From: Caballeronia calidae
Lineage (GTDB): Bacteria; Pseudomonadota; Gammaproteobacteria; Burkholderiales; Burkholderiaceae
Reading direction: 5' to 3'
Length of the DNA stretch: 64,000 nucleotides
NCBI RefSeq assembly: GCF_900044055.2
Contig: NZ_FCOX02000035.1
Location: forward strand, 1 to 64,000
Shown: positions 11,059 to 26,840 of the stretch, in pieces
Layout: each line of letters begins with the position of its first letter
Position numbering within the stretch: the first letter of the stretch is position 1
Program-made: the position numbers and the translations under genes
The notes under the pieces: model-generated
Database searches by the model: none
The model's input: the letters and a program-made list of their open reading frames with translations, nothing else
Told to the model about the DNA's origin: nothing

Positions 11059-12456
11059 ATGACCTATCTGGATATACAGCTGTTGCTGACCGCGCTGGTC
11101 AGCGTGTTGGTGCTGGTCGCACTCATCGTGTCGCGCATCAAGATGCACCCGCTGCTTGCCTTGCTCGTCGTTTCCCTTGGCGTGGGCTTTGCAACCGGCA
11201 TGGAGCCGGAGAGCATCGTCAAACACTTGATCAATGGCGCGGGAAAAACATTGGGCGCGGTGGGCATCGTGATCGCGCTGGGCGCCATGCTCGGCAAGAT
11301 TCTTGCCGATGCCGGCATCACCGAGCAAATCGCCGAAGCCATCCTGAGGCACGCCTCGGATCGGATGATCCCTTGGGCCATGACGCTGGTTGCGTTTATC
11401 GTTGGTATTCCTATGTTTTTCGAAGTGGGTCTGGTGGTCATGCTGCCGCTCATATTCAGCGTGGCGCGCAAGCTGGAAAGCCACGCCCGCTTCAAAGGCT
11501 CCGCTTACGTGTACGTCGGCGTTCCCGTGATCTCGGCTCTCGCCGCGATGCATGGCATGGTGCCGCCCCACCCAGGCCCTCTGACAGCCATCGCCACCCT
11601 CAAGACCTCGGTCGGCCCGACCATGTTGTATGGCTTTCTGGCGGCCATTCCGGCCATGATTCTGGGCGGTTCGCTCTATGGCGCATTCATTTCGCCGCGC
11701 ATGAGCACCAGACCCGATCAGGCCTTGCTGGACCAGTTCACGGTCGCCGAGAAGGCCGGCAGCGGCCAGCGGCCCGGCGTCGGGGTCGGCGTGCTGGCAG
11801 CCTTGCTACCGGCCATCCTCATGCTGGTTCATGCCGTCGCCGAAATGGCGCTGCCGAAAGGTAGTCCGATCCTGCATGTGGCCAGCTTCCTGGGCAACCC
11901 CTTGGTCGCCATGCTGCTGGGTGTGCTGTTCGCCATCGTCGCGCTGGTCGTCGCGCGCGGAGGCGATGCCGAAAAGCTGCGCGACGCGCTGGGCAAGAGT
12001 CTCAAGCCCATCGCGTCGATCATCATGATCATCGCGGGAGGCGGCGCCTTTCAGCAAATGCTGACCAGTGCCAAGGTGGGCGATGCAATCGTTCATCTGA
12101 CGCAGCAGTTTGCCTTTCCCCCGCTGATTCTGGGCTGGCTGATCGCCATGCTGCTCTCCGTCTCCACCGGTTCGGCCACCGTGGGTATCGTGGGCGCAGC
12201 CGGCCTGCTCGCGCCGCTGGCCGGCGCCGATCCCAGCCTGAATCTGCCTTTGCTGGCCTTGTCCATTGGCTGCGGCTCGCTGTTTTTCAATTACGCCAAC
12301 CACGCCGGTTTCTGGATGGTGAAGGAATCCTTTGGCATGACCATGGGTGAAGCTATGGGTGAAGCTACCAAGACGATCTCGGTGGTTCAATCCATCGTGG
12401 CGGTAGTGGGCTTGATCATGGTGTTGATTTTCAACGCGGCCATTCCTGTTCACTGA
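11059..12456 (+). CDS. GntP-family permease (gluconate/organic-acid proton symporter)
   Basis: 465 residues, about 12-14 hydrophobic segments and the GntP signatures: GMVPPHPGPLTAI after helix 5, GSATVGIVGAAGLLAPL late in the protein, and NHAGFWMVKESFGMT near the C-terminus. The family imports gluconate, glycerate, 3-hydroxybutyrate or related hydroxy acids across the inner membrane. Near the end MGEAMGEA is an exact 12-base duplication. By eye the gene uses GCC, CTG and TTG more than its neighbours, which favour GCG and CTC, hinting at a different origin. It precedes the oxalate genes but has its own upstream region; glycerate would fit oxalate-derived glyoxylate metabolism, though this is speculative. 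Confidence 0.88.
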   Translation: MTYLDIQLLLTALVSVLVLVALIVSRIKMHPLLALLVVSLGVGFATGMEPESIVKHLINGAGKTLGAVGIVIALGAMLGKILADAGITEQIAEAILRHASDRMIPWAMTLVAFIVGIPMFFEVGLVVMLPLIFSVARKLESHARFKGSAYVYVGVPVISALAAMHGMVPPHPGPLTAIATLKTSVGPTMLYGFLAAIPAMILGGSLYGAFISPRMSTRPDQALLDQFTVAEKAGSGQRPGVGVGVLAALLPAILMLVHAVAEMALPKGSPILHVASFLGNPLVAMLLGVLFAIVALVVARGGDAEKLRDALGKSLKPIASIIMIIAGGGAFQQMLTSAKVGDAIVHLTQQFAFPPLILGWLIAMLLSVSTGSATVGIVGAAGLLAPLAGADPSLNLPLLALSIGCGSLFFNYANHAGFWMVKESFGMTMGEAMGEATKTISVVQSIVAVVGLIMVLIFNAAIPVH

Positions 12457-13232: not shown

Positions 13233-14585
13233 ATGGTGAGCGTAGATCCGACGGTAGCCGGGCAGTCGCACGGGCGTCGTCAAAACAGGTGGGTGCAGTT
13301 GGTGATCGGCATCGTCTGCATGGGGCTTGTCGCCAATTTCCAGTACGCGTGGACGTTGTTCGTCATGCCGATGGACGCAAAGCACCATTGGGGACAGGCG
13401 GCGATTCAAACCGCCTTCACGATCTTCATCGTTACAGAGACGTGGCTCGTGCCCGTCGAGGGCTGGCTCGTCGATAAATTCGGACCGCGCCCGGTGGTGA
13501 TGGGCGGCGCGATCTTCGCTGCGATCGGCTGGATCATCGACGCCCATGCGACCACGCTCATGCATTTATACATCGCCGCAGTGGTCGCGGGCATCGGCGC
13601 GGGTTGCGTGTATGGCACCTGCGTCGGCACGGCGCTGAAGTGGTTTCCGGACAAGCGTGGTCTCGCGGCCGGTCTGACGGCGGCGGGCTTCGGCGCGGGC
13701 GCAGCCGTGACCGTGATCCCGATCTCCAACATGATCCAGAACTCCGGCTACGAAAGCGCGTTCATGTTCTTCGGCATTCTGCAAGGCGCCGTCATTTTCG
13801 TGCTGGCGCTGTTGCTCGTGCGGCCGAATCCGCCGAAGGACATCGTGCCGACCAAGCGCATCGTGGCGACCAAGATCGACTATACGACCGGACAGATGGT
13901 GCGAGCGCCTATCTTCTGGGTGCTGTACATGATGTTCGTCGCGGTGGCGGCGGGCGGTGTGATCGCCACTGCGCAGTTCGGGCCGATCGCCAAGGAATAC
14001 GGCTTCGCGAGCTTGCCGGTTAGCCTCTTCGGTGCGACTTTGCCGCTGCTCGCGATGACGCTGTCCATCGATAACCTGTGCAACGGCTTCACGCGTCCGC
14101 TGTGCGGCTTCATCTCCGACAAGATCGGCCGCGAGAACACCATGTTCATCATCTTTCTGGGCGAAGGCGTCGCGCTGCTCGGGTTGATGCAGTTCGGACA
14201 GAATCCCTACCTGTTCATGCTGTTCGCGGCGCTGACGTTCCTGTGCTGGGGCGAGATTTTCTCGATCTTCCCGGCGACCTGCGCGGACACGTTCGGCAGC
14301 AAGTACGCCGCCGCCAACGCAGGCACGCTGTACACGGCCAAGGGGACGGCTTCGATGCTGGTGCCGCTCGCGTCGGTGCTGGCGTCGCTCGGCTCGTGGA
14401 ATGCCGTGTTCATCGCGACTGCGATCACGTCGATCGCGGCGGGCGTGTGCGCGAAGTTCGTACTCGCGCCAATGCGCCGCCGCTGGATAGAGAACACGGT
14501 CACGCAGACTTCGTCGCAGCCCTATATCGACTTGCCGTTTCAGACTGACTGGACGGATGCGCCGAGCAAGTCGTCAACTCGATGA
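13233..14585 (+). CDS. oxlT: oxalate/formate antiporter (MFS, OxlT family)
   Basis: 450 residues with 12 transmembrane helices. It begins RWVQLVIGIVCMGLVANFQY and contains the family pieces PVEGWLVDKFGPRPVVMGG, CVGTALKWFPDKRGLAAGL and GFTRPLCGFISDKIGRENTM. Two charged residues fit the oxalate-binding pair known in Oxalobacter OxlT: an arginine at about 288 (GFTRP) and a lysine at about 370 (LYTAKGTAS), 82 residues apart as against 83 in the reference protein. It would bring divalent oxalate in and release formate, an electrogenic exchange that with internal decarboxylation generates proton motive force. GGAG eight bases before the ATG supports the start. It precedes the GntR gene and the oxc-frc operon. 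Confidence 0.92.
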   Translation: MVSVDPTVAGQSHGRRQNRWVQLVIGIVCMGLVANFQYAWTLFVMPMDAKHHWGQAAIQTAFTIFIVTETWLVPVEGWLVDKFGPRPVVMGGAIFAAIGWIIDAHATTLMHLYIAAVVAGIGAGCVYGTCVGTALKWFPDKRGLAAGLTAAGFGAGAAVTVIPISNMIQNSGYESAFMFFGILQGAVIFVLALLLVRPNPPKDIVPTKRIVATKIDYTTGQMVRAPIFWVLYMMFVAVAAGGVIATAQFGPIAKEYGFASLPVSLFGATLPLLAMTLSIDNLCNGFTRPLCGFISDKIGRENTMFIIFLGEGVALLGLMQFGQNPYLFMLFAALTFLCWGEIFSIFPATCADTFGSKYAAANAGTLYTAKGTASMLVPLASVLASLGSWNAVFIATAITSIAAGVCAKFVLAPMRRRWIENTVTQTSSQPYIDLPFQTDWTDAPSKSSTR

Positions 14586-14838: not shown

Positions 14839-15071
14839 TAGGGAGCCTGGCGCACGGGGTCAGCCTTGTACTGAATGGATAAAAGGGGAGTGTCGGCCGC
14901 ATGTGCATGAAAGCCCTGACCAGAAGCTGTTAAGGAGCCTTCGCTGGCAGTCGGAGGAGCCGCAGGACAGGCTCCGCCGCGCGGGGCGCTACAGTCGCCA
15001 TGGCGATCCGGCAAGCGGTCGATGCACGCACATCAACCAAGGCATGTCCGCAGTGGGGAATCAAGCAATCC

Positions 15072-15803
15072 ATGCCATCTGAAACTCAAACCCCGCAAGG
15101 GGCCGAGACTGGCTCCGGCGGACTGACGCTGTCGCTGGAACCCATCGGCGCGACCGCGTCGCTTCGCGATCAGGCTTACATGAAATTACGCCAGGTGATC
15201 GACGAAGCCGATATCTACCATTCGCGAAGTGAAATTCGCCTTGACGAAAGAGAGCTGACGGAAGCGCTCGGCGTGTCGCGTACACCGATCCGCGAAGCCA
15301 TGGCGCGGCTCCTGCAGGAAGGGTTTCTGCGCGCCGGATCCCGTCGCGGTGTCTACATCCTGCGCAAAACCAAGCGCGAGATCGTCGAGATGATTCACAT
15401 GTGGGCCGCACTCGAGAGCGCTGCGGCGCAACTCGCCATCCAGCGTGCGACCGACGAGGAAATCGCTCAGCTTCGCCGGATGTTCGACGACTTCCGCGAT
15501 TCGACACCCGCCGAGCATATCGACGAGTATTCGGCAGCGAACATCGCGTTCCATTCGGCCGTCGTGAGGCTGTCGAAGTCGAAAGTCATCTTCGACACGA
15601 TCGAGAATATCTTCGCGCACGTGCGCGCCATTCGTAAGATGACGCTCCCTCAGAGCGACCGCGCGTCGCGTTCGATCGTCGATCACATGCGGATCATCGA
15701 GGCGCTCGAATCTAGAGACACGGAACTGGCCGAGCGCCTCGTGAAGCATCACTCGCTCGACCTTGCCGCCTTCGTCGAAGCCAATTGCGATTTTCTTGAT
15801 TGA
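15072..15803 (+). CDS. GntR-family regulator with FCD domain, probable regulator of the oxalate genes
   Basis: 243 residues. The N-terminal winged helix-turn-helix (about 30-95) includes RDQAYMKLRQVIDEADIY and the recognition region ALGVSRTPIREAMARLLQEG. The C-terminal all-helical FCD ligand domain includes ANIAFHSAVV and the histidine-bearing VDHMRIIEALESRD, LVKHHSLDL; such histidines bind a metal that coordinates carboxylate ligands. The ATG at 15072 is preferred over one at 15000, whose extra 24 residues are not family-like. Position between oxlT and oxc, with GGTAT-type palindromes before both, makes it the likely local regulator, sensing oxalate, oxalyl-CoA or a product. That assignment is inference. 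Confidence 0.85.
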   Translation: MPSETQTPQGAETGSGGLTLSLEPIGATASLRDQAYMKLRQVIDEADIYHSRSEIRLDERELTEALGVSRTPIREAMARLLQEGFLRAGSRRGVYILRKTKREIVEMIHMWAALESAAAQLAIQRATDEEIAQLRRMFDDFRDSTPAEHIDEYSAANIAFHSAVVRLSKSKVIFDTIENIFAHVRAIRKMTLPQSDRASRSIVDHMRIIEALESRDTELAERLVKHHSLDLAAFVEANCDFLD

Positions 15804-15990: not shown

Positions 15991-16022
15991 TTGACAAATA
16001 CCGTATCTGGTATCTAGTATAT
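15991..16022 (+). promoter_or_regulatory. oxc-frc promoter with embedded GntR-type operator
   Basis: A perfect TTGACA (15991-15996) and TAGTAT (16015-16020) are separated by 18 bases. The spacer carries ATACC (15998-16002) and GGTAT (16009-16013) as an inverted repeat, so a bound repressor would block RNA polymerase. The half-site matches the palindrome before oxlT. GGGGGAG follows ahead of the oxc start. Confidence 0.6.
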
Positions 16023-16054
16023 CACCAACACAACCGGCCCTCTGGGGGAGACAA

Positions 16055-17797
16055 ATGGCAGACGTACTCGAGGCAAGAACACAGGAAGCCGCTGAAGTGA
16101 AGGCGCCGCAGTTGACCGACGGTTTCCATCTCGTCATCGATGCCCTGAAGCTGAACGACATCGACACGATCTTCGGCCTCGTCGGGATTCCTATCACCGA
16201 CCTTGCGCGACTCGCTCAGGCTGAAGGCATGCGCTTCATCGGTTTTCGCCATGAGCAGCATGCAGGCAACGCGGCCGCGATCGCCGGCTACATGACGCAG
16301 AAGCCGGGCATCTGCCTGACCGTGTCGGCGCCGGGCTTCCTGAACGGCCTGACCGCGCTTGCCAATGCGACCACCAACTGCTTCCCGATGATCCTGATCA
16401 GCGGCTCGAGCGAGCGGGAGATCGTCGATCTGCAGCAGGGCGATTACGAAGAGATGGACCAGCTGAACGCGGCAAAGCCGTATGCGAAGGCTGCCTACCG
16501 CGTGCTGCATGCGGAGGACATCGGCATCGGCATCGCGCGTGCGATCCGCGCGGCTGTATCGGGCCGTCCGGGCGGCGTGTATCTCGATCTGCCGGCCAAG
16601 CTGCTGTCGCAGACGATGGACGCGCTCAAGGGCCAGCAATCGCTCATCAAGGTCGTCGATGCCGCGCCGCGTCAGTTGCCGTCGCCGGATTCGGTGAAGC
16701 GCGCCCTCGACGTGATCAAAAACGCGAAGCGTCCGCTGATCCTGCTGGGCAAGGGCGCAGCCTACGCGCAAGCCGACGCGCAGATTCGCGAGCTGGTGGA
16801 GAAGAGCGGCATTCCGTATCTGCCGATGTCGATGGCCAAGGGCCTGTTGCCGGACACGCATGCGCAATCGGCGTCGGCGGCGCGTTCGTTCGTGCTGCAG
16901 GAAGCGGATTGTGTCGTGCTGATCGGCGCGCGTCTGAACTGGCTGCTCGCGCACGGCAAGGGCAAGACCTGGGGCGCAGCGCCCAAGCAGTTCGTGCAGA
17001 TCGACATCTCGCCGACCGAAATCGACAGCAACGTCGCGATCGCCGCACCGGTGATCGGTGACATCGGCTCATGCGTGTCGGCGCTCGTCGAAGGCATCGG
17101 CGCGGGCTTTCCGAAGCCGTCGAGCGAATGGACGGGCGCGATCAACGAGCGCAAGAACAAGAACCTCGAAAAGATGGCGGCGACGCTCGCGAAGAATCCG
17201 TCGCCGATGAACTTCCACAGCGCGCTGCGCGCCATCCGCGACGTGTTGAAGACGCGCCCGGACATCAACGTCGTCAACGAAGGCGCGAACACGCTCGACT
17301 ATGCGCGCAGCATCATCGACATGTACGAGCCGCGCAAGCGTTTCGATTCGGGCACGTGGGGGATCATGGGCATCGGCATGGGCTTCTCGATCGGCGCGGC
17401 GGTGACGAGCGGCAAGCAGGTCGTCGCGATCGAAGGCGACAGCGCGTTCGGCTTCAGCGGCATGGAACTCGAAACCATCTGCCGATACGACTTGCCGGTC
17501 TGCACCATCGTCTTCAACAACAACGGCGTGTATCGCGGCACCGATGTGAATCCCACCGGCGGCAAGGATGTCGCGCCGACCGTGTTCGTGAAGAACGCAC
17601 GCTACGACAAGATGATCGAGGCATTCGGCGGCATCGGCTTCAACGCGACGACGCCGGAAGAGCTCACGCATGCACTCGAAGAGGCGATCAAGTCCGGCAA
17701 GCCGACGCTGATCAACGCTGTCATCGACGAGACGGCCGGCACGGAGAGCGGTCGCCTGACGAATCTGAACCCGCAAAGCGCGGCATCGAAAAAGTAA
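16055..17797 (+). CDS. oxc: oxalyl-CoA decarboxylase
   Basis: 580 residues, within the usual 565-580. This thiamine diphosphate enzyme splits oxalyl-CoA into formyl-CoA and carbon dioxide in the cytoplasm. The cofactor-activating glutamate is at about residue 67 ([16 protein letters not shown]). The thiamine/magnesium motif runs from [13 protein letters not shown] (near 461) to FNNNG. Oxc-type segments include [20 protein letters not shown] and [18 protein letters not shown] strong ribosome site (GGGGGAG) precedes the ATG. Frc follows after 28 bases, so both form one operon, preceded by a TTGACA promoter with a GntR-type palindrome. Confidence 0.96.
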
Positions 17798-17825
17798 CCA
17801 AGACGAGCCACCCAGGAGAATCCCC

Positions 17826-19079
17826 TTGAGCAACAAACCACTCGAAGGCATCAAGATCATCGACTTCACGCACGTGCAGGCCGGTCCCGCATGCACCCAG
17901 ATGCTGGCATGGTTCGGCGCGGACGTGATCAAGGTCGAGCGTCCCGGTTCGGGCGACGTCACGCGTAACCAGTTGCGCGACATTCCGGACGCGGATGCGC
18001 TGTACTTCACGATGCTCAACAGCAACAAGCGCTCGTTGACGCTCGATACGAAGAAGCCCGAAGGCAAGGAAGTGCTGACCAAGCTGATCAAGGAATCGGA
18101 CGTGCTGGTCGAGAATTTCGGGCCGGGCGCGCTGGACCGGATGGGTTTCTCCTGGGAAAACATCAAGGCGCTGAATCCGAAGATGATCGTGGCGTCCGTC
18201 AAGGGCTTCAGCGACGGCCACCACTACGACGACCTGAAAGTCTACGAAAACGTCGCGCAATGCGCGGGTGGCGCGGCATCGACCACGGGCTTCTGGGACG
18301 GCCCGCCGACCATCAGCGCGGCGGCGCTCGGCGACAGCAACACCGGCATGCACCTCGCGATCGGCATCCTGACGGCGATCATCGGCCGTCAGCAAACGGG
18401 CAAGGGGCAGAAGGTTGCCGTGTCGATGCAGGACAGCGTGCTCAATCTGTGCCGCGTGAAGCTGCGCGACCAGCAACGCCTGGATCGCGTCGGCTATCTC
18501 GAGGAATATCCGCAGTATCCGCACGGCACGTTCAGCGACGTCGTGCCGCGTGGCGGCAATGCGGGCGGCGGCGGGCAGCCGGGCTGGGTGCTCAAGTGCA
18601 AGGGCTGGGAAACCGATCCGAACGCCTACATCTACTTCACGATTCAGGGCCACGCGTGGGCGCCGATCTGCCGTGCAATCGGCAAGGAGCAATGGATCGA
18701 AGACCCGGACTACAACACGGCCGAAGCGCGCCAGTCGCACATCTTCGATATCTTCGGCAAGATCGAAGACTGGCTCGCCGACAAGACCAAGTTCGAAGCC
18801 GTCGATATCCTGCGCAAGTTCGATATTCCGTGCGCGCCGGTGCTGACGATGAAGGAACTCGCGAACGACGAGTCGTTGCGCAAGAGCGGTTCCATCGTCG
18901 AAGTGGATCACAAGGTCCGCGGCAAGTACCTCACGGTCGGCAGCCCGATCAAGTTCTCGGAGCTGAAGCCGGAAATCACGAGCTCGCCGCTGCTGGGCGA
19001 GCACACCGAGGAAGTGCTGCGCGAGCTTGGCTATAGCACGGAGCAGGTTGCGCTCATGCAGAAAGCGGGCGCCGTTTGA
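17826..19079 (+). CDS. frc: formyl-CoA:oxalate CoA-transferase
   Basis: 417 residues, a class III CoA-transferase that moves CoA from formyl-CoA to oxalate, regenerating oxalyl-CoA for Oxc. The catalytic aspartate is residue 170 counting Met1 (LGDSNTGMH), matching Asp169 of the Oxalobacter enzyme. The mobile glycine loop is [10 protein letters not shown]. The N-terminus [19 protein letters not shown] is characteristic. The start codon is TTG, supported by AGGAGA seven to eight bases upstream and by the conserved N-terminus. The gene is the second in the oxc operon and ends at a long inverted repeat. Confidence 0.96.
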
Positions 19080-19106
19080 CGTAGTCGTCCTGGCAGGTAA
19101 AGGTGA

Positions 19107-19177
19107 GCGCTGCCTTCTACGGTCTTTCTTTTTCGCGGCAGTGGTGCGAAAAAGCCAAGGTGAAAGAACGGCAGCGC
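19107..19177 (+). terminator. long interrupted hairpin after frc
   Basis: Three nested stems: GCGCTGCC (19107-19114) with GGCAGCGC (19170-19177), TCTTTC with GAAAGA, and TTTTTCGC (19129-19136) with GCGAAAAA (19146-19153). The whole 71 bases can fold back on itself. It separates the oxc-frc operon from the PAS gene and probably stops or attenuates transcription. Confidence 0.55.
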
Positions 19178-19244
19178 CCCTTCGAATAGACTGGATCGAT
19201 TCGAGCCCGAGCTTCAATCGATACCCCACGATCCGGATGACATC

Positions 19245-19676
19245 ATGACCCACACCATCGACTACGAACAACTCGTCAATGCGATCGGCGACGCCGTCAT
19301 CATTTCGGATGCGAGCGGCGCGATCACACTATGGAATCCGGCGGCGGAACGCATGTTCGGCTTCACCCAAAGCGAAGCATTGGGTCAGTCGCTGGATCTG
19401 ATCATTCCGGAACGCCTGCGCGGTCGTCATTGGGACGGCTATCACAAGACGATGGCGACTGGCGAGACGCGTTATGGACACGATCTGCTCAAGGTGCCCG
19501 CCGTCGATAAAGCCGGACGCGCGATGTCGATTGCGTTCACCGTCGCGCTGTTGCATTCGCCGCAAGGCGAATTGAACGGCATCGTCGCGATCGTCCGCGA
19601 TGAAACGGCGCGGTTTCAGGAAGATCGCGCACTGCGCAAGCGTATCGCCGAGCTGGAGGCAAACGCCAACGCCTGA
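19245..19676 (+). CDS. single-domain PAS sensor protein
   Basis: 143 residues forming one PAS domain (about 8-120) and a short coiled-coil tail (EDRALRKRIAELEANA). No kinase, GGDEF or DNA-binding output is attached. The segment RLRGRHWDGYHKTMATGET aligns by eye with the F-helix of FixL-type haem PAS domains, placing His62 at the haem-ligand position. The FixL distal arginine is not conserved. The domain might therefore bind haem and sense oxygen or redox state, or another small ligand. It lies between frc and the FAH-family gene on the same strand, bounded by hairpins on both sides. The partner protein is unknown. Confidence 0.8.
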   Translation: MTHTIDYEQLVNAIGDAVIISDASGAITLWNPAAERMFGFTQSEALGQSLDLIIPERLRGRHWDGYHKTMATGETRYGHDLLKVPAVDKAGRAMSIAFTVALLHSPQGELNGIVAIVRDETARFQEDRALRKRIAELEANANA

Positions 19677-19766
19677 GCATTCACTGATTCAGAGAACGAA
19701 AAAGCAACCAGGAGAATACAGCTGCGCCCGCGCACCAAAAAATGCGCACGGGCGTAGCTGAGTAAG

Positions 19767-19796
19767 GAAGCGGCCACTCATCCCACCGGCCGCTTC
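19767..19796 (+). terminator. hairpin terminator after the PAS gene
   Basis: GAAGCGGCC (19767-19775) pairs perfectly with GGCCGCTTC (19788-19796) around a 12-base loop. There is no T-run. Confidence 0.5.
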
Positions 19797-19955
19797 ACTC
19801 GATGCCCGTATTCGCGGCTGACCGACCAGGAAACTGACCATCATTCGTACCTCGCGCCAGCTTCGTGCTGATGCGAGGCGCAAGCGGCTGCGTGCGTGCA
19901 TATGACATCGCCGCATCAGCGCGAAAAGGTTTTGCGACATCGGGAAAAAACGATT

Positions 19956-20765
19956 ATGAGCTTGTGGATCCGCTATACGCGCGCGACGGCCAAGGATGAC
20001 GGCCGCACTGGTTTCGGCTTGCTCGAGGACGGGCGCGTGATCGAATACGAAGGAGACATGTTCGCTTCGCCGCGTCGGACAGGACGGACGTTCGACCTCG
20101 AAGAGATTTCGCTGACGAGTCCGTGCGTGCCGAGCCGGATCGTCGCGTTATGGAACAACTTTCATGCGCTCTCCGCGAAGCTGGGCAAGGCGCTGCCCGC
20201 ACACCCGCTGTTTCTCATCAAGCCTTCGACATCCCTCGCAGGACCCGGCGACACGATCCGGCGCCCCGTGGGATACGACGGCAAGATCGTCTATGAAGGC
20301 GAACTCGGCATCGTGATCGGAAAGCGGTGCAGCAATGTGAGTATCGAAGAAGCGGCCGATTACGTGTTCGGCTATACGTGCGTGAACGACGTCACAGCCG
20401 CCGAGCTGCTGTTCGAGGATGCCAACTTTCCGCAATGGTGCCGCGCGAAAGGCTACGACACCTTCGGCTGCATCGGTCCTGCGATCGCAACCGGGCTCGA
20501 CTGGCAAAACACGCACGTCGTGACGACGCTGGACGGCGTCGAGCGACAGAACTATCCGCTTGCCGACATGGCGTTTTCGCCACTGGAACAGGTGAGCCGC
20601 ATTTCCCGCGATATGACCTTGCTGCCAGGCGACGTCATCGCATGCGGCACTTCGCTGGGCGTGGGTTCGATGCGCGACGGCGCGACGGTCGAGGTCTCGA
20701 TCGAAGGCATCGGCACATTGACGAACCACGTGTCCGAAGTCCTCGCGACGGCTGAAGCACGATAA
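19956..20765 (+). CDS. fumarylacetoacetate hydrolase (FAH) family protein
   Basis: 269 residues. The C-terminal FAH domain (from about 60) carries the metal-binding acids: YEGELGIVIGK and, about 30 residues later, CVNDVTAAELLFED. The substrate loop is PQWCRAKGYDTFGCIGPAI, and the end is GDVIACGTSLGVGSMRDGATVEV. Family members hydrolyse or decarboxylate beta-keto acids and isomerise dienoates; some, such as FAHD1, decarboxylate oxaloacetate. Placement between the oxalate operon and pntAB suggests a role in C2-C4 acid metabolism, but the substrate is open. The ATG at 19956 is preferred over an earlier ATG at 19896 because the family N-terminus starts WIRYTRA. Confidence 0.82.
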   Translation: MSLWIRYTRATAKDDGRTGFGLLEDGRVIEYEGDMFASPRRTGRTFDLEEISLTSPCVPSRIVALWNNFHALSAKLGKALPAHPLFLIKPSTSLAGPGDTIRRPVGYDGKIVYEGELGIVIGKRCSNVSIEEAADYVFGYTCVNDVTAAELLFEDANFPQWCRAKGYDTFGCIGPAIATGLDWQNTHVVTTLDGVERQNYPLADMAFSPLEQVSRISRDMTLLPGDVIACGTSLGVGSMRDGATVEVSIEGIGTLTNHVSEVLATAEAR

Positions 20766-20840
20766 GCCTTCTCAGGCGCAATCAGGCGCATCCAGGCGTG
20801 CGCCACTCAAGAATACAAACCGTCGATTGGGAACACAGTC

Positions 20841-22400
20841 ATGCCAATGATGATTGCTGTGCCACGGGAGCGCTATCCCGGGGAGCGTCGCGTCGCGTTG
20901 ACGCCAGAAGTAGTCGGGCACCTGCTGAAGCTCGGTTTCGAGGTTACCGTCGAGGCCGGCGCGGGTGAGCTTGCCGCATTCGCCGACGATGCCTATCGCG
21001 CCGCGGGTGCGCACATCGCCAAGGATGCGCCATCGCTCTATGCAGGCGCGGATATCGTCGTGAAAGTGCGTGCGCCTTCCATCGCGCCTGAATCCGATGA
21101 AGTCGAGTGGCTGCGCGCAGGGTCGACGCTGATCAGCTTTGTCTGGCCGGCGCAGAACGCGGCGCTATTGACGCGCCTGAGCGCGCGCAACGTCACCGTG
21201 CTCGCGATGGACTGCGTGCCGCGCATTTCGCGCGCGCAAAAGCTCGATGCATTGAGTTCGATGGCCAATATGGCGGGCTATCGCGCGGTCATCGAAGCTG
21301 CGCACGGGTTCGGCCGCGGTTTCATGGGACAGATCACGGCGGCAGGCAAGATCGCGCCGGCGAAAGTGATGGTGATCGGCGCCGGCGTGGCGGGACTGGC
21401 GGCGATCGGCGCGGCGCGCAGTCTTGGCGCGATCGTCCGTGCGTTCGATACGAGGCCCGAAGTGCGGCAGCAGGTCGAGAGCATGGGCGCCGAGTTTCTC
21501 GAGCTCGACTATGTCGAGGACGGCAGCGGCAACGGCGGCTACGCCAAAGAGATGAGCCCCGAATTCATCGCTGCTGAAATGGCGCTCTTTGCCGCGCAAG
21601 CGAAGGAAGTCGACATCATCGTGACGACCGCGCTGATCCCCGGTAAGCCCGCGCCGAAACTGATCACCGCCGACATGGTGCGCAGCATGCGCCAGGGCAG
21701 CGTGATCGTCGACATGGCGGCGGAGCAGGGCGGCAACTGCGAACTGACGCAGCCGGGCGAGGCGGCATCCGTGGAAGGCGTCACGATCGTCGGCTATACG
21801 GATCTCCCGTCGCGCATGGCAACGCAATCGAGCCAGCTGTACGGCACGAATCTGCGGCATCTGCTGACCGATCTGACGCCGCAGAAGAACGGCGAGATCG
21901 TGCTCGATACCGCTGACGAGGTGATCGGCGGCGTAACGGTGGTGCTGCGCGGCGAAGTGAAGTGGCCGCCGCCCAAGAGACCCGAGCCCGCGGTTGCCCC
22001 GCCCGCTGCCGCAAAGCCCGCAGCGCCGATTGTCGTGACCGTCGAACAGAAGCGCCGCGCAGGATGGATCGGCGTGGCCGGGCTCGTTATTTCAGCGGCA
22101 TTGCTTGCGGCGCTGGGCGCCGTTGCTCCGCCTGCGTTCGTCGCGCACTTCACCGTGTTCGTGCTGGCCATCTTCATCGGCTTCCAGGTCGTGTGGAACG
22201 TGACGCCCGCCTTGCACACGCCGCTGATGAGCGTGACGAATGCGGTCAGTGGAATCATCGTGACGGGCGCGCTGCTGCAGGTCGGCACGCCGCATCATCT
22301 GGTCGCGATTCTCGCCGGCCTCGCGATATTGGTCGCGACGATCAACATCGCTGGTGGATTTCTCGTCACTCAACGCATGTTGAACATGTTCCAGCGCTAA
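20841..22400 (+). CDS. pntA: proton-translocating NAD(P) transhydrogenase, alpha subunit
   Basis: 519 residues, the single-chain form as in E. coli (about 510), with NAD-binding domain I at 1-380 and four membrane helices at 405-519. Domain I starts [19 protein letters not shown]. It has the Rossmann motif [20 protein letters not shown] and the mobile-loop region [21 protein letters not shown] proline/alanine-rich linker (near 375-395) joins the two parts. With PntB it uses proton flow across the inner membrane to reduce NADP with NADH. pntB follows after 10 bases. The position downstream of oxc-frc suggests NADPH supply for reductive assimilation of oxalate. Confidence 0.95.
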
Positions 22401-22410
22401 GGAGATCGAC

Positions 22411-23808
22411 ATGCAAAACGGAATCGGAAGCATCGCCTATCTGGCGGCGAGCGTGCTGTTCATCCTGAGCCTGCGCGGGCTCAGCCATCCATCGACGGCG
22501 CGGCGCGGCAACCTCTATGGCGTCGTCGGCATGGCCATCGCCATCGTCACCACGCTATGGCTCAACGGCGGGGCCGCGTTGCCGGTCGTCGTCGTGCTGA
22601 TGACGATCGGCATAGCGGGCGGCGCGATACTTGCGCGGCGCGTCGAGATGACACAGATGCCGCAGCTCGTCGCGGCGTTGCACAGTTTCGTGGGTCTGGC
22701 GGCCGTGCTGGTCGCCATTGCGAGCTACCTGTCGCCGGCAGTCGACGCGGAGTCGGGTGGCGTGGCGCAATCGGTCCACAATGTCGAGATTTATCTCGGC
22801 GTGTTCATCGGCGCGATAACGTTCACGGGGTCTATCGCTGCGTTCCTGAAGTTGCAGGGTGTGGTGGGCGGCAAGCCGCTGTTGCTGCCGATGCGGCACA
22901 CGCTGAATCTCGTGGGCGTGTTTGCGTGCATTGCGCTCGGCTATGTGTTCCTCACAGCGCCCGACGCGGAGGTGGGCATCAGCTCGCTGCTTACGATGAC
23001 CGCGATCGCCGCGCTGATCGGCGTGCATCTGGTGATGGCGATCGGCGGCGCGGACATGCCGGTGGTCGTGTCGATGCTGAACAGCTACTCGGGGTGGGCC
23101 GCCGCTGCGACCGGCTTCATGCTCAGCAATGATCTGTTGATCGTGACCGGAGCGCTGGTCGGATCGAGCGGGGCGATTCTGAGCTACATCATGTGCCGCG
23201 CGATGAACCGCAAATTCCTCGCCGTGATTCTGGGCGGGTTCGGCACGGCGACGTCGACCGCAGCGAAGGCGATCGAAGGGGAAGTCGCGCCGGTCACTGT
23301 CGACGAAGTCGGCTCGCTGCTGCGCGATGCGTCGGAAGTCGTCATCGTGCCCGGCTACGGCATGGCGGTCGCGCAGGCTCAGGCGACGATCAGCGAGATC
23401 ACGAAGAAGCTGCGCAGCAAAGGCGTGAACGTGCGATTCGGCATTCACCCGGTGGCGGGCCGCTTGCCGGGGCACATGAACGTACTGCTGGCAGAGGCGA
23501 AGGTGCCCTACGACATCGTCCTCGAGATGGATGAGATCAACGACGACTTCTCCAACACGGATGTCGTGCTCGTGATCGGCGCAAACGACATCGTGAATCC
23601 TGGCGCGCTCGAGGACCCGGGCAGCCCGATCGCCGGCATGCCTGTGCTCGAAGTGTGGAAGGCGCGCACCGTGGTCGTGTCCAAACGAAGCATGGCAGCA
23701 GGCTACGCCGGTGTCGACAACCCGCTTTTCTATAAAGAAAACACGCGGATGCTCTTCGGCGATGCGAAGGGCAGTGTCGATGCGCTGCTCAGTCATCTTG
23801 CCGCCTGA
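22411..23808 (+). CDS. pntB: NAD(P) transhydrogenase, beta subunit
   Basis: 465 residues, full length. Eight or nine membrane helices occupy about residues 1-260. The NADP-binding domain III occupies the C-terminal 175, with [31 protein letters not shown], the conserved [20 protein letters not shown] and [17 protein letters not shown]. The [14 protein letters not shown] helix segment ([14 protein letters not shown]) belongs to the proton channel. It is the second gene of the pnt operon, with a GGAG-type site before the ATG. The PanE-family gene begins 112 bases later and may be co-transcribed. Confidence 0.95.
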
Positions 23809-23920
23809 GACGGATCGACGGCGAAGACAAAGCACTGCATATGGGAAAGGCCTGGCCTTGGCGGCTGAAACGAAAACGTGTTTCAGCGCCCGGCATTCTT
23901 GACGTGTAACGGGAGTAACG

Positions 23921-24940
23921 ATGAAGATCTGTGTCTATGGCGCCGGTGCAATCGGTGCATACCTTGGCGCGCAGCTGGCATCTGCCGGCGCTGACGTGAG
24001 CTTCGTTGCGCGTGGTCCGCACCTCGCAGCGATGCAGGAGAACGGCGTGCGGTTGCAAATCGATGGCGGGGAACGTGTCGTCAGGGTCCGGTGCGCGTCG
24101 GATCCGCGCGAGCTCGGTCCGCAGGATTACGTGATCGTCGCGTTGAAAGCGCATTCAGTGCCCGGTGTCGTCGATCAGATTCAGACTTTGCTCGGGCCGG
24201 AGACGGCCATCGTCACGGCGGTCAACGGGATTCCCTATTGGTACTTCTACAAGCACGGAGGCGAGCTGGAAGGGTCCACGCTCGATAGCGTCGATCCCGG
24301 GGGAAAGCAATGGAACGCGCTCGGACCGGAGCGTGCGATCGGTTGCGTGGTGTACCCGGCGGCGGAAGTCGTGGCACCAGGTGTGATCCGCCATGTATAT
24401 GGCAAGAAGTTTCCGATCGGCGAACCCAATGGAGAGCGCAGCGGCCGCATTCAAAAGCTGCATGAAATCATGAGCGCGGCGGATCTGGATGCGCCCATCC
24501 GCGAGTCTATCCGTGATGAAATCTGGCTGAAGCTCTGGGGTAATCTCTGTTTCAACCCGATCAGCGCATTGACCCATGCCACGCTCGATGTCATTACGAG
24601 TAATCCGGCTACGCGAGCCGTGTCGAAGGCCATGATGCTGGAGGCGAAAGCGATTGCCGATCGCTTCGACGTGCATTTCCGTGTGGACGTCGAAAGGCGT
24701 ATCGACGGCGCGGGGGCAGTCGGCGCGCATAAGACGTCGATGCTCCAGGATCTCGAGGCAAACAGGCCGATGGAGATCGATCCGCTCCTCACCGTCGTGC
24801 AGGAAATGGGGCGTCTTGTCGGGCAAGCGACACCGACGATCGATACGGTGCTCGCGCTCATCAAGCTGCGAGGACAGATTGCGGAGCAATCGCCCCGATC
24901 AACGGCAAAATCGGCGCCTGTCGTCGAAACGACTTCATAG
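23921..24940 (+). CDS. PanE-family (2-dehydropantoate 2-reductase-like) NADPH reductase, candidate oxalyl-CoA reductase
   Basis: 339 residues, somewhat longer than classical ApbA/PanE (about 300). The N-terminal Rossmann motif is GAGAIGAYLGAQLA (residues 7-20), and DYVIVALKAHSVP is the following conserved strand. The helical C-terminal domain contains EIWLKLWGNLCFNPISALTH and HKTSMLQDLEANRPMEIDPL, with the ketopantoate-reductase type lysine and acidic residues. The family uses NADPH. Association with oxc-frc and pntAB makes a role in oxalate assimilation more likely than pantothenate synthesis: I recall, unverified, a PanE-family protein being assigned as oxalyl-CoA reductase in a methylotroph. 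Annotating it plainly as panE could mislead. Confidence 0.75.
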   Translation: MKICVYGAGAIGAYLGAQLASAGADVSFVARGPHLAAMQENGVRLQIDGGERVVRVRCASDPRELGPQDYVIVALKAHSVPGVVDQIQTLLGPETAIVTAVNGIPYWYFYKHGGELEGSTLDSVDPGGKQWNALGPERAIGCVVYPAAEVVAPGVIRHVYGKKFPIGEPNGERSGRIQKLHEIMSAADLDAPIRESIRDEIWLKLWGNLCFNPISALTHATLDVITSNPATRAVSKAMMLEAKAIADRFDVHFRVDVERRIDGAGAVGAHKTSMLQDLEANRPMEIDPLLTVVQEMGRLVGQATPTIDTVLALIKLRGQIAEQSPRSTAKSAPVVETTS

Positions 24941-25106: not shown

Positions 25107-26294
25107 CTAACTTGCGACGGCGAGCGATTCGAGCGCGACCTCCATCTCCGCCTCCACCTCCACCCGATTACGACCATTGCCCTTCGCACGATACAGCGCG
25201 TGGTCTGCATGCTTCAATAATTGTTCGATGGTCGCTTCGCGCGCATTGAGACATGCAATTCCGATGCTACAGGTATATGAAGGCAAGGCTGAGCCGTCCG
25301 TCCATGCGATACGTGCCTGCAGTGCACGGGCGAGGCCGAGCGGTTCATCGACGATCTTGCAAGGGAGAAGCACCGCGAACTCCTCTCCGCCCCAGCGCGC
25401 GAAGTGAGCGTGCTGGGGGAGCGCGAGAGCAGCGCGTCGCGCGAAATCCACCAGGATGTCGTCACCCATCGAGTGACCGTAGGTGTCGTTGATTCTTTTG
25501 AAATGGTCGAGGTCGATCAGCAGCAGTGACAGGTAGGGTCCCGTCCGGCGAGGCGCTTCCCTCGCAATCTTGTGGGCCTCCAGAAGAGCGCGGCGATTGA
25601 GGAGGCCAGTGAGCGGATCGATGAGAGAAAGTTGTTCGAGATGAATTCGAAGTCTATTCACTGCTGTCAGCATGAATCCCACCGTTATGCTGAGGGACAT
25701 GAATGCGCCGCTGCTCAGGTAAATCAGTTGCACCAGATCCTGCGCGTATAAGCCTTCGTGCGCGGATCCCGGTTTTAGCGACGTCACGATTCTCGTTAAA
25801 GTTATGAGCGTCTCGACTGCAAACATGGAGCCTACGACCTTCGCGCCATTATCCCTTTGCCCGAACCTCAGTAGTTCATAAGCTAAAAGGGCGAAAAGCA
25901 GTGCAAGAATGACATTCGTGCACAGGGAGCGCCCGTAAGGGGCGAAGTCGATCCATGTCATCCAGCTAAGGCAGACCGCATCGATCACAGTCAACGCTGA
26001 GACGAACCGGACAAAAGGTACTCGGCCGAAGTAGCGCTGACTGCCAATGAGCCAAAGTCCTATACCGCCGACGATACATATATTGCCGCAGATGACCGAG
26101 AGCCAGTCCGGAAGCGTATCGCGCAGCGCCATGAGGAATGTGGCAGCCGAAAAGACAAGTGAGCCCTGCGCCCATTGCGCTACACCGCGAATGCTTCTGG
26201 GAAATGTTCTGCCTATCGAAAACATCACTAGCGCCATCAGTCCGGGCATCACGGATGCCATCAGCAGGACGGTACGCAGGTCAAACGTGGGCAT
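25107..26294 (-). CDS. membrane-bound diguanylate cyclase (GGDEF)
   Basis: 395 residues. About six hydrophobic helices occupy residues 5-215 as a membrane sensor. They are followed by a catalytic GGDEF domain (about 235-385) with DPLTGLLNRRALLEAH, LLLIDLDHFKRINDTYGHS, the active-site WGGEEFAVLLPC and YTCSIGIACL. It should make cyclic di-GMP from two GTP. The allosteric inhibition site (RxxD five residues before GGEEF) is absent; the sequence there is PQHAHFAR. The ATG at 26294 was chosen because the in-frame extension upstream is hydrophilic and arginine-rich. It stands alone between non-coding gaps. Confidence 0.87.
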   Translation of the reverse strand: MPTFDLRTVLLMASVMPGLMALVMFSIGRTFPRSIRGVAQWAQGSLVFSAATFLMALRDTLPDWLSVICGNICIVGGIGLWLIGSQRYFGRVPFVRFVSALTVIDAVCLSWMTWIDFAPYGRSLCTNVILALLFALLAYELLRFGQRDNGAKVVGSMFAVETLITLTRIVTSLKPGSAHEGLYAQDLVQLIYLSSGAFMSLSITVGFMLTAVNRLRIHLEQLSLIDPLTGLLNRRALLEAHKIAREAPRRTGPYLSLLLIDLDHFKRINDTYGHSMGDDILVDFARRAALALPQHAHFARWGGEEFAVLLPCKIVDEPLGLARALQARIAWTDGSALPSYTCSIGIACLNAREATIEQLLKHADHALYRAKGNGRNRVEVEAEMEVALESLAVAS

Positions 26295-26840
26295 GATTGG
26301 CTTGTTGGAGCGCGATGTACCGCAGTTTTCAAAGCGTAGTGACGTTGCCGCGTCGAAAGCCCTGCGTCGCGACAGCGCGGGCGGTGGCTGCCGAGTGAGC
26401 GGCAACCGACGGTTGAATTTGGTCGCTAAGCTGCTAATCGAGTCGATAGACCCACTGTCGATCAACATCGAATAACGGCGCGCGATTGCAAAACTTTAGA
26501 GAATTGCGGGCCGATTCCAACAAATAACGGCACCGACTTGTTGTCGACTTCAATCATTCAGTAGAGCCGGGAGGGTGCGCGGGGCCATGCGCTACCGGCG
26601 TTGCGTGCGCTTGCGCCATTCGTCCAGTATCTTCAACGTTGCCTGCATTGACGGCTAAGGCGGGCGTTTGCACGACGTGGTTTCGCCCGCATTATCCGCT
26701 CGCGGCGGCCGAGTCACGTGAATGAAGCAGGATGCGTCGAAAGCGACGCGCATCGCGTCGCTTACCGGCGAACGGCCGCATCATGCGAGAAGCGTCGCGC
26801 TATCTCGATGATGTCGGACGCACATTCGATCAGGACACTT
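26295..26840. other. 546-base gap without a convincing gene
   Basis: Only short overlapping frames with arginine-rich translations occur here. I see no hairpin with a T-run, no repeat and no RNA gene. It probably holds the promoter of the diguanylate cyclase gene and the 3' region of the sulfoxide-synthase gene. Confidence 0.5.

Follow-up and report, generated by a model that had tools for sequence, protein, structure and literature searches.

What does a gene labeled 2-dehydropantoate 2-reductase (ketopantoate reductase) do at the end of a run of oxalate genes? This question is raised by the window analyzed here, a stretch of 64,000 nucleotides from Caballeronia calidae (positions 1 to 64,000 of NZ_FCOX02000035.1, contig 35 of a 9.6 Mb genome in 379 contigs). 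Nine genes, all open frames on the + strand between 13233 and 24940, stand there in the order oxlT-gntR-oxc-frc-PAS-FAH-pntA-pntB-PanE-family. It is highly probable that they form an island for oxalotrophy, one arm of it dissimilatory and the other assimilatory, in which the PanE-family protein would be an NADPH-dependent oxalyl-coenzyme A (oxalyl-CoA) reductase. The reaction and the gene type are already known; what the present analysis adds is the correction of the subfamily annotation, a second island in the same genome, a FAH-family companion of the reductase and its linkage to the transhydrogenase PntAB.

Proposed pathway and published precedent

In the proposed pathway, OxlT would bring oxalate in and formate out. 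Frc would move CoA from formyl-CoA to oxalate and Oxc would decarboxylate oxalyl-CoA to formyl-CoA; the products of this arm would be formate and CO2, along with reducing power and a degree of proton-motive force. A share of the oxalyl-CoA would be reduced with NADPH to glyoxylate and CoA by the PanE-family enzyme (EC 1.2.1.17). Oxalyl-CoA would offer the carboxylate-C(=O)-R arrangement of ketopantoate, with S-CoA as R, and the hydride would be delivered to the carbonyl to give a hemithioacetal splitting into glyoxylate. The latter would enter the glycerate pathway through glyoxylate carboligase, hydroxypyruvate isomerase and tartronate semialdehyde reductase, while PntAB would most likely use NADH and proton-motive force to supply the NADPH. 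The three glycerate pathway genes (gcl-hyi-glxR) lie together on another contig, C7, and the island is therefore not the self-contained cassette that an earlier note on this DNA had described.

The original paper on Methylobacterium extorquens PanE2, an enzyme of the same family with the same proposed reaction, is reportedly that of Schneider et al. in 2012. In Cupriavidus necator H16, apbA2, located near frc-oxc, was picked out by its resemblance to M. extorquens PanE2 (51% identical, 66% similar), and its deletion increased the doubling time on oxalate from 6.5 h to 10 h; the doubling time was 13 h on deletion of the glycerate pathway and growth was abolished on deletion of frc-oxc (Claassens et al., 2020; PMC7486775). 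The likeness to the window thus extends from a PanE-family gene by frc-oxc to the proposed reaction and the glycerate pathway downstream. Besides, the purified PanE of M. extorquens AM1, supplied with glyoxylate, CoA and NADP+ in the assay, had a Km for glyoxylate of 0.36 mM (PMC9485241), PanE2 was characterized as a putative oxalyl-CoA reductase and employed to convert oxalyl-CoA into glyoxylate (PMC8411744), and PanE2 is also covered in PMC3720670. The methylotroph enzyme mentioned in the earlier note does exist (PMC9485241, PMC8411744, PMC7486775), and the reductase which that note called missing has a published reaction and gene type.

In Caballeronia cordobensis, whose locus heads the 80 named ones, the counterpart of the window protein is 95% identical; identity to the copy from C. 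necator A5-1, a strain standing in for H16 in the test of orthology with ApbA2, is 80%. The window protein may also be an ortholog of AM1 PanE2: the A5-1 copy and the PanE of Methylobacterium bullatum are 50% identical with 67% positives, values close to those of the published ApbA2/PanE2 pair, and identity between the window protein and a Methylobacterium copy is 48%, but 3GHY-type proteins fall between them in the tree described below. The A5-1 locus (L033) also carries a Frc-like gene, FAH and pntAB, but in the order PanE-GntR-Frc2-FAH-PntAB, as opposed to Oxc-Frc-PAS-FAH-PntAB-PanE in the window. The terms fumarylacetoacetate and transhydrogenase are absent from the main text of PMC7486775.

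The genome contains seven ApbA matches above 80 bits. One of them, on C8, scores 480 bits against 3HWR, labeled ketopantoate reductase of Ralstonia eutropha JMP134, and is likely, as judged from this match, the housekeeping panE. The window gene is thus not the only panE candidate of the genome, and it is the C8 copy that resembles 3HWR. Because of this separate candidate, the ketopantoate reductase label of the window gene is probably wrong, as the earlier note had suspected; the candidate, together with the oxalate phenotype of the C. necator relative, also supports the oxalyl-CoA reductase assignment.

Conservation of the oxalate neighborhood

The neighborhood was examined in the 80 best of 340 relatives, i.e., those nearest to the window protein, which are mutually related. 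Of these loci, 64 extend for 8 kb or more on either side of the PanE relative; in them, neighbors counted within 10.5 kb were Frc in 64, FAH in 59, GntR in 58, OxlT in 57, Oxc in 38 and PntAB in 19. A chance cluster is ruled out by these counts. The association was also observed at the scale of whole genomes. The family was represented by 200 genomes with a completeness of 90% or more. At thresholds of E ≤ 1e-90 for PanE and E ≤ 1e-200 for Oxc, the two occurred together in 84, PanE alone in 23, Oxc alone in 2 and neither in 91; out of 25 genera, 8 had PanE and 10 had Oxc. Where both were present, they lay within 15 kb of each other in 44 genomes (24 on one strand), farther apart on one contig in 17 and on separate contigs in 23.

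Similar genes were found in other genera. PanE belongs to an OxlT-FAH-PanE group in M. bullatum and in four fetched genomes of Methylobacterium (L089, L122-L125), with the difference that oxc lies elsewhere in those four genomes; in G751 it is 7.7 kb from panE. A hand count over 69 Methylobacterium genomes gave PanE in 40, Oxc in 60 and both in 39. In the Oxalobacter-like genus g227, whose genomes are of about 2 Mb, a PanE 50-52% identical to the window protein is present in all 18 genomes listed with Oxc and FAH stands beside it in the three loci fetched, but PanE is at least 245 kb from oxc where both are on one contig. Four of the six Oxalobacter-like genomes searched have no strong ApbA match besides a PanE of this type, which may do both jobs there. 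On a Phyllobacterium plasmid, panE-FAH is followed by a gene named bhcR, then by sucCD, frc and a thiamine diphosphate (ThDP) enzyme. Since BhcR of Paracoccus responds to glyoxylate, and in vitro to oxalate (PMC11323563), this arrangement links the group to glyoxylate and speaks for the reductase assignment.

Several observations weigh against this assignment. The co-occurrence within the family (Fisher p 8e-32) was computed with relatedness ignored. At the class level (276 genomes), PanE (E ≤ 1e-60) was found in 10 genomes and Oxc (E ≤ 1e-150) in 3, and only the window's own genome was common to both. At the phylum level, a hand count over 299 genomes with the M. bullatum protein as PanE query gave both in 19, PanE only in 26, Oxc only in 6 and neither in 248. 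PanE of this type is missing from 21 of the 60 Methylobacterium genomes with Oxc, and for 6 of the 17 PanE lineages compared (identities under 70%, flanks of 6 kb or more on both sides) no oxalate gene was in reach. The low frequency of PntAB, 19 of the 64 loci, implies that it is optional. In a tree of 49 rows, no clean oxalate clade was obtained: 3GHY, the paralog C5:256831 of the same genome and L141 fall, on a long stem, between the window branch and the Methylobacterium and Oxalobacter-like branches. Oxalate neighbors were looked for around C5:256831 and L141 and not found. Lastly, in the sequence comparisons, copies from C. necator A5-1 and from Methylobacterium stand in for H16 ApbA2 and AM1 PanE2.

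Transhydrogenase genes

Both subunits of PntAB are full length with a family match. The window pntB is 64-66% identical to the other full pntB of the genome (a further partial pntB lies at a contig end). It is nearer to the copies linked to PanE in Cupriavidus and other Caballeronia, at 72-97% identity. A pntAB pair also stands beside PanE in one locus each of Skermanella and Azospirillum, at 53-57% identity to the window pntB, i.e., from a different lineage. Linkage of the reductase to two PntAB lineages suggests, from gene neighborhood, that it calls for an NADPH source, and it is plausible that PntAB is that source. The force spent by PntAB could plausibly come from the oxalate/formate exchange, as proposed in the earlier note; the larger contribution in an aerobe would probably be that of formate respiration.

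A rival explanation is that pntAB is a passenger unrelated to the reductase. It was not found near PanE in 45 of the 64 loci, nor in the second island of the same genome described below, but the divergence from the other full copy of the genome (66%), the closeness to the PanE-linked Cupriavidus and Caballeronia copies and the occurrence of the different lineage in Azospirillum and Skermanella make this explanation unlikely, while leaving it some weight. A literature search for oxalate with pntAB and oxc found no paper, and one combining oxalyl-CoA and glyoxylate with transhydrogenase and oxalate listed a single paper, on hen caeca according to its title.

Sequence and structure of the PanE-family protein

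The ApbA and ApbA_C domains are full and over the cut-off, with 171.6 bits for TIGR00745 (cut-off 141.35). Residues N102, K204, S273 and E285, whose counterparts in Escherichia coli PanE are catalytic, are the same in the oxalate-linked proteins as in canonical PanE. An insertion of about 20 residues follows the NG motif in the oxalate-linked proteins, whereas 3HWR and the four canonical-type copies of the genome are devoid of it. The closest solved structure both by sequence (261.8 bits) and by fold (43% identity) is 3GHY, a "ketopantoate reductase" of Ralstonia solanacearum, which shares the insertion but differs at positions otherwise conserved in the oxalate-linked sets. Indeed, out of 91 positions conserved in both of these sets, 13 differ in the intervening group and in canonical PanE; the sets compared (31 oxalate-linked, 3 intervening and 5 canonical-type rows) were picked by branch and neighborhood. 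A 3GHY-type relative in the window's own genome, L096, has no oxalate neighbor within the 14 kb examined.

The predicted structure has a mean predicted local distance difference test (pLDDT) score of 81, lower at the insertion (block means of 62 and 73, residues 101-120), and we therefore make no claim on CoA contacts there. Its best match is 3GHY, and the matches include structures labeled ketopantoate reductase as well as D-mandelate dehydrogenases. Because they also include 5AYV, the structure of an archaeal ketopantoate reductase in complex with coenzyme A, the fold can hold CoA.

Three other functions of the protein were weighed against reduction of oxalyl-CoA. In vivo, the enzyme might run mainly in reverse, turning glyoxylate derived from glycolate into oxalyl-CoA for disposal via Oxc. 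The reaction is reversible (PMC9485241) and C. necator without the glycerate pathway grows more slowly on glycolate when frc-oxc is lost (PMC7486775), but growth on oxalate is slower without apbA2 (PMC7486775), and the presence of oxlT and pntAB in the island would point to oxalate as substrate and to a need for NADPH, so that we regard a mainly reverse function as improbable. Reduction of another 2-oxo acid, either glyoxylate to glycolate or hydroxypyruvate or tartronate semialdehyde to glycerate, would suit the catalytic residues, a set belonging to general 2-oxo-acid reductases, and the D-mandelate dehydrogenases among the fold matches. It is nevertheless very improbable, as the genome already has a tartronate semialdehyde reductase (TIGR01505, 402.6 bits) and CoA was supplied along with glyoxylate and NADP+ in the assay of the M. 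extorquens enzyme (PMC9485241). That an ordinary ketopantoate reductase sits by accident at the end of an oxalate operon, as the complete domains, the TIGR00745 score and the labels of the nearest folds would allow, is scarcely credible given the C8 copy closer to the solved ketopantoate reductase, the insertion, the tight pairing with oxalate genes within the family and the oxalate phenotype of the C. necator counterpart (PMC7486775).

FAH-family companion

The FAH protein genuinely belongs to the assimilatory arm and is also the least explained part of the island. Across the 17 PanE lineages, a FAH gene within 500 bp is the commonest close neighbor of PanE: it was found in 8 lineages, versus 6 for Frc, 5 for OxlT, 4 for the ThDP lyase and 1 for Oxc, all four counted within 10.5 kb. 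The row of the window's own lineage, L017, is among the few without a detected FAH, and 8 of 17 is thus a low figure. FAH accompanies PanE in distant lineages in which oxc does not accompany it, an observation that the earlier reading left aside.

The FAH alignment comprised 97 sequences, i.e., the best match per locus of at least 100 bits plus the window protein, many of them close relatives. At the NYxxHxxE motif, whose His/Glu pair we take to be catalytic, 95 of the 97 sequences have letters and 94 of these 95 lack both residues, with Leu, Met or Ala in place of His and Lys or Arg in place of Glu. The exception, L138, is a distant FAH protein, 32% identical to that of the window; 4PFZ and 4DBF have both His and Glu. 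The presumed metal ligands E, E and D are kept in 95/95, 95/95 and 94/94 of the aligned sequences with letters. With the usual His/Glu motif lost, the activity of a standard FAH hydrolase is unlikely for this protein, and canonical FAH chemistry (oxaloacetate decarboxylation, tautomerization) was rejected on this ground. The text of a review on FAHD1 names K123 and Q109 in that protein, the terms H30 and E33 being absent from it (PMC12176266).

A tentative proposal, to which we give somewhat less than even credence, is that the FAH protein is a dedicated, so far undescribed enzyme of reductive oxalate assimilation. OxlT, FAH and PanE, with a CoA-transferase and optional SucCD or PntAB, would then make up a module separable from Oxc, as in the second island of this genome. 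Its substrate could be the CoA hemithioacetal released by the reductase, a glyoxylate adduct or, if it works as a thioesterase, oxalyl-CoA.

Second island and islands without Oxc

The second island lies on C5 (L094 G000:C5:57000-76999 and L095 G000:C5:77000-87000) and comprises an aldehyde dehydrogenase, LysR, OxlT, PanE, GntR, SucCD-like proteins, Frc2 and FAH. Its PanE copy (C5:68313) is 74-75% identical to the window protein; identity to the window genes is 90% for OxlT, 79% for GntR, 68% for Frc2 relative to Frc and 60% for FAH. No match to Oxc, a ThDP lyase or another decarboxylase was found within the 30 kb examined. From this gene content, the C5 island may be a purely assimilatory module.

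Elsewhere, some of the genomes with PanE only are accounted for by another ThDP enzyme in the island, one of the 2-hydroxyacyl-CoA lyase/oxalyl-CoA decarboxylase kind. It was seen directly in the island in G352, G080, G617 and G682; in G386, G430 and G460 it is known only via glyoxylate carboligase profile matches at the same offset from PanE.

Within the 64 loci, Oxc was present in 38, the ThDP enzyme in 10 and neither in 16, and no locus had both within 10.5 kb. PanE islands with the ThDP enzyme and without Oxc include L104 (14632-16563), L052, L053, L055, L090, L092, L107, L126 and L135. The L104 enzyme is near 2-hydroxyacyl-CoA lyases (PDB 7PT3, E 2e-80) and scores 232.6 bits, far under the Oxc cut-off of 739.4. 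Of its 16 copies, those of L064 and L071 gave only a few readable residues. The enzyme may replace Oxc or join formyl-CoA to glyoxylate.

Genes for SucCD-like ligases stand beside PanE in 26 of the 64 loci (e.g., L094, L104, L090, L092 and L137). Since reductive assimilation takes a CoA thioester out of the Frc cycle, these ligases could refill it as succinyl-CoA for Frc2.

Annotation of the subfamily

The name of NF005089, "2-dehydropantoate 2-reductase", hides a step of oxalate assimilation in many genomes, including the small Oxalobacter-like ones with Oxc. With a corrected label, surveys could separate bacteria able to use oxalate for biomass as well from those limited to its destruction. 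In a 2026 survey of 536 genomes, the assimilation set consists of Gcl, hydroxypyruvate reductase and serine-glyoxylate transaminase, and "panE" is absent from the main text (PMC12927642). For Cupriavidus oxalaticus Ox1, of a related genus, a putative complete operon for oxalate degradation and assimilation has been announced, its genes being unlisted in the announcement (PMC9476978). To the known core of the pathway, the present analysis adds the FAH companion and the linkage to two PntAB lineages.

Gene calls and regulatory sites

Gene identities were assigned through NCBIfam and Pfam profile matches to the open reading frames of the window (Table 1). The frames and matches bear out the gene set, its order, its single strand and its position behind oxlT and a GntR regulator as the earlier note gave them; OxlT, Oxc and Frc all exceed their NCBIfam equivalog cut-offs. 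The FAH gene probably starts at the ATG at 19956, rather than at the GTG at 19896, because this start is conserved among relatives. Gaps of 112-414 bp separate some of the island genes, and a single transcript for the island therefore remains a prediction.

Table 1. Genes of the oxalate island, its downstream border and a candidate regulatory region (coordinates of the window).
Feature	Coordinates	Strand	Support
oxlT, oxalate/formate antiporter (major facilitator superfamily)	13233..14585	+	TIGR04259, 632 bits (cut-off 335)
GntR/FCD-family regulator	15000..15803	+	PF07729 and PF00392
Candidate oxc promoter and operator	15991..16026	+	TTGACA-18-TAGTAT (15991-16020) overlapping TCTAGTATATCACC (16013-16026)
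oxc, oxalyl-CoA decarboxylase	16055..17797	+	TIGR03254, 1001 bits (cut-off 739.4); NF006721, 1037.6 bits
frc, formyl-CoA:oxalate CoA-transferase (listed start TTG)	17826..19079	+	TIGR03253, 727.7 bits (cut-off 504.2)
Single PAS-domain protein, 143 aa	19245..19676	+	PAS S-box TIGR00229, E 8.6e-18
FAH-family protein (FAA_hydrolase)	19956..20765 (frame opens 19896)	+	PF01557, E 1.2e-58
pntA, transhydrogenase alpha	20841..22400	+	TIGR00561, 772.1 bits (cut-off 444.4)
pntB, transhydrogenase beta	22411..23808	+	PF02233, 653 bits; NF006974, 687.7 bits (just below cut-off 689, full length)
PanE/ApbA-family gene (family label 2-dehydropantoate 2-reductase)	23921..24940	+	NF005089, 523.3 bits (cut-off 223)
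GGDEF protein, convergent, marks the island end	25107..26468	-	TIGR00254, 143 bits

The candidate promoter and operator region of oxc is conserved in seven aligned sequences, the window and six Caballeronia loci. Scans of the whole window did not rise above chance for promoters (1 found, 2.8 expected), and returned 9 terminators for 9.0 expected. In the C5 island, the 14-mer TCTTGTATATCAGA occurs exactly upstream of panE and gntR (L094:11266-11279 on the + strand and 12355-12368 on the - strand), and with 2 mismatches at 16659. With up to 2 mismatches, at least three sites are present in 5 of 12 loci (L094, L046, L052, L060 and L104), one in each of L009 and L045, and none in the other five. 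This 14-mer is a candidate GntR operator; the window has it in a 3-mismatch form only, over the -10 region of oxc, a count at the chance level (1 match, 1.08 expected).

Upstream of panE, 13 of the 80 loci (L014, L015, L016, L020, L022-L029 and L047) are cut off by a contig end after 0.3-1.8 kb, a sign that the DNA at that point may be repeated or a gene duplicated. A counterpart of the PAS protein, 63-96% identical, follows an frc in 26 of the 80 loci by hand count; judging from its single domain, this protein could be a free-standing sensor.

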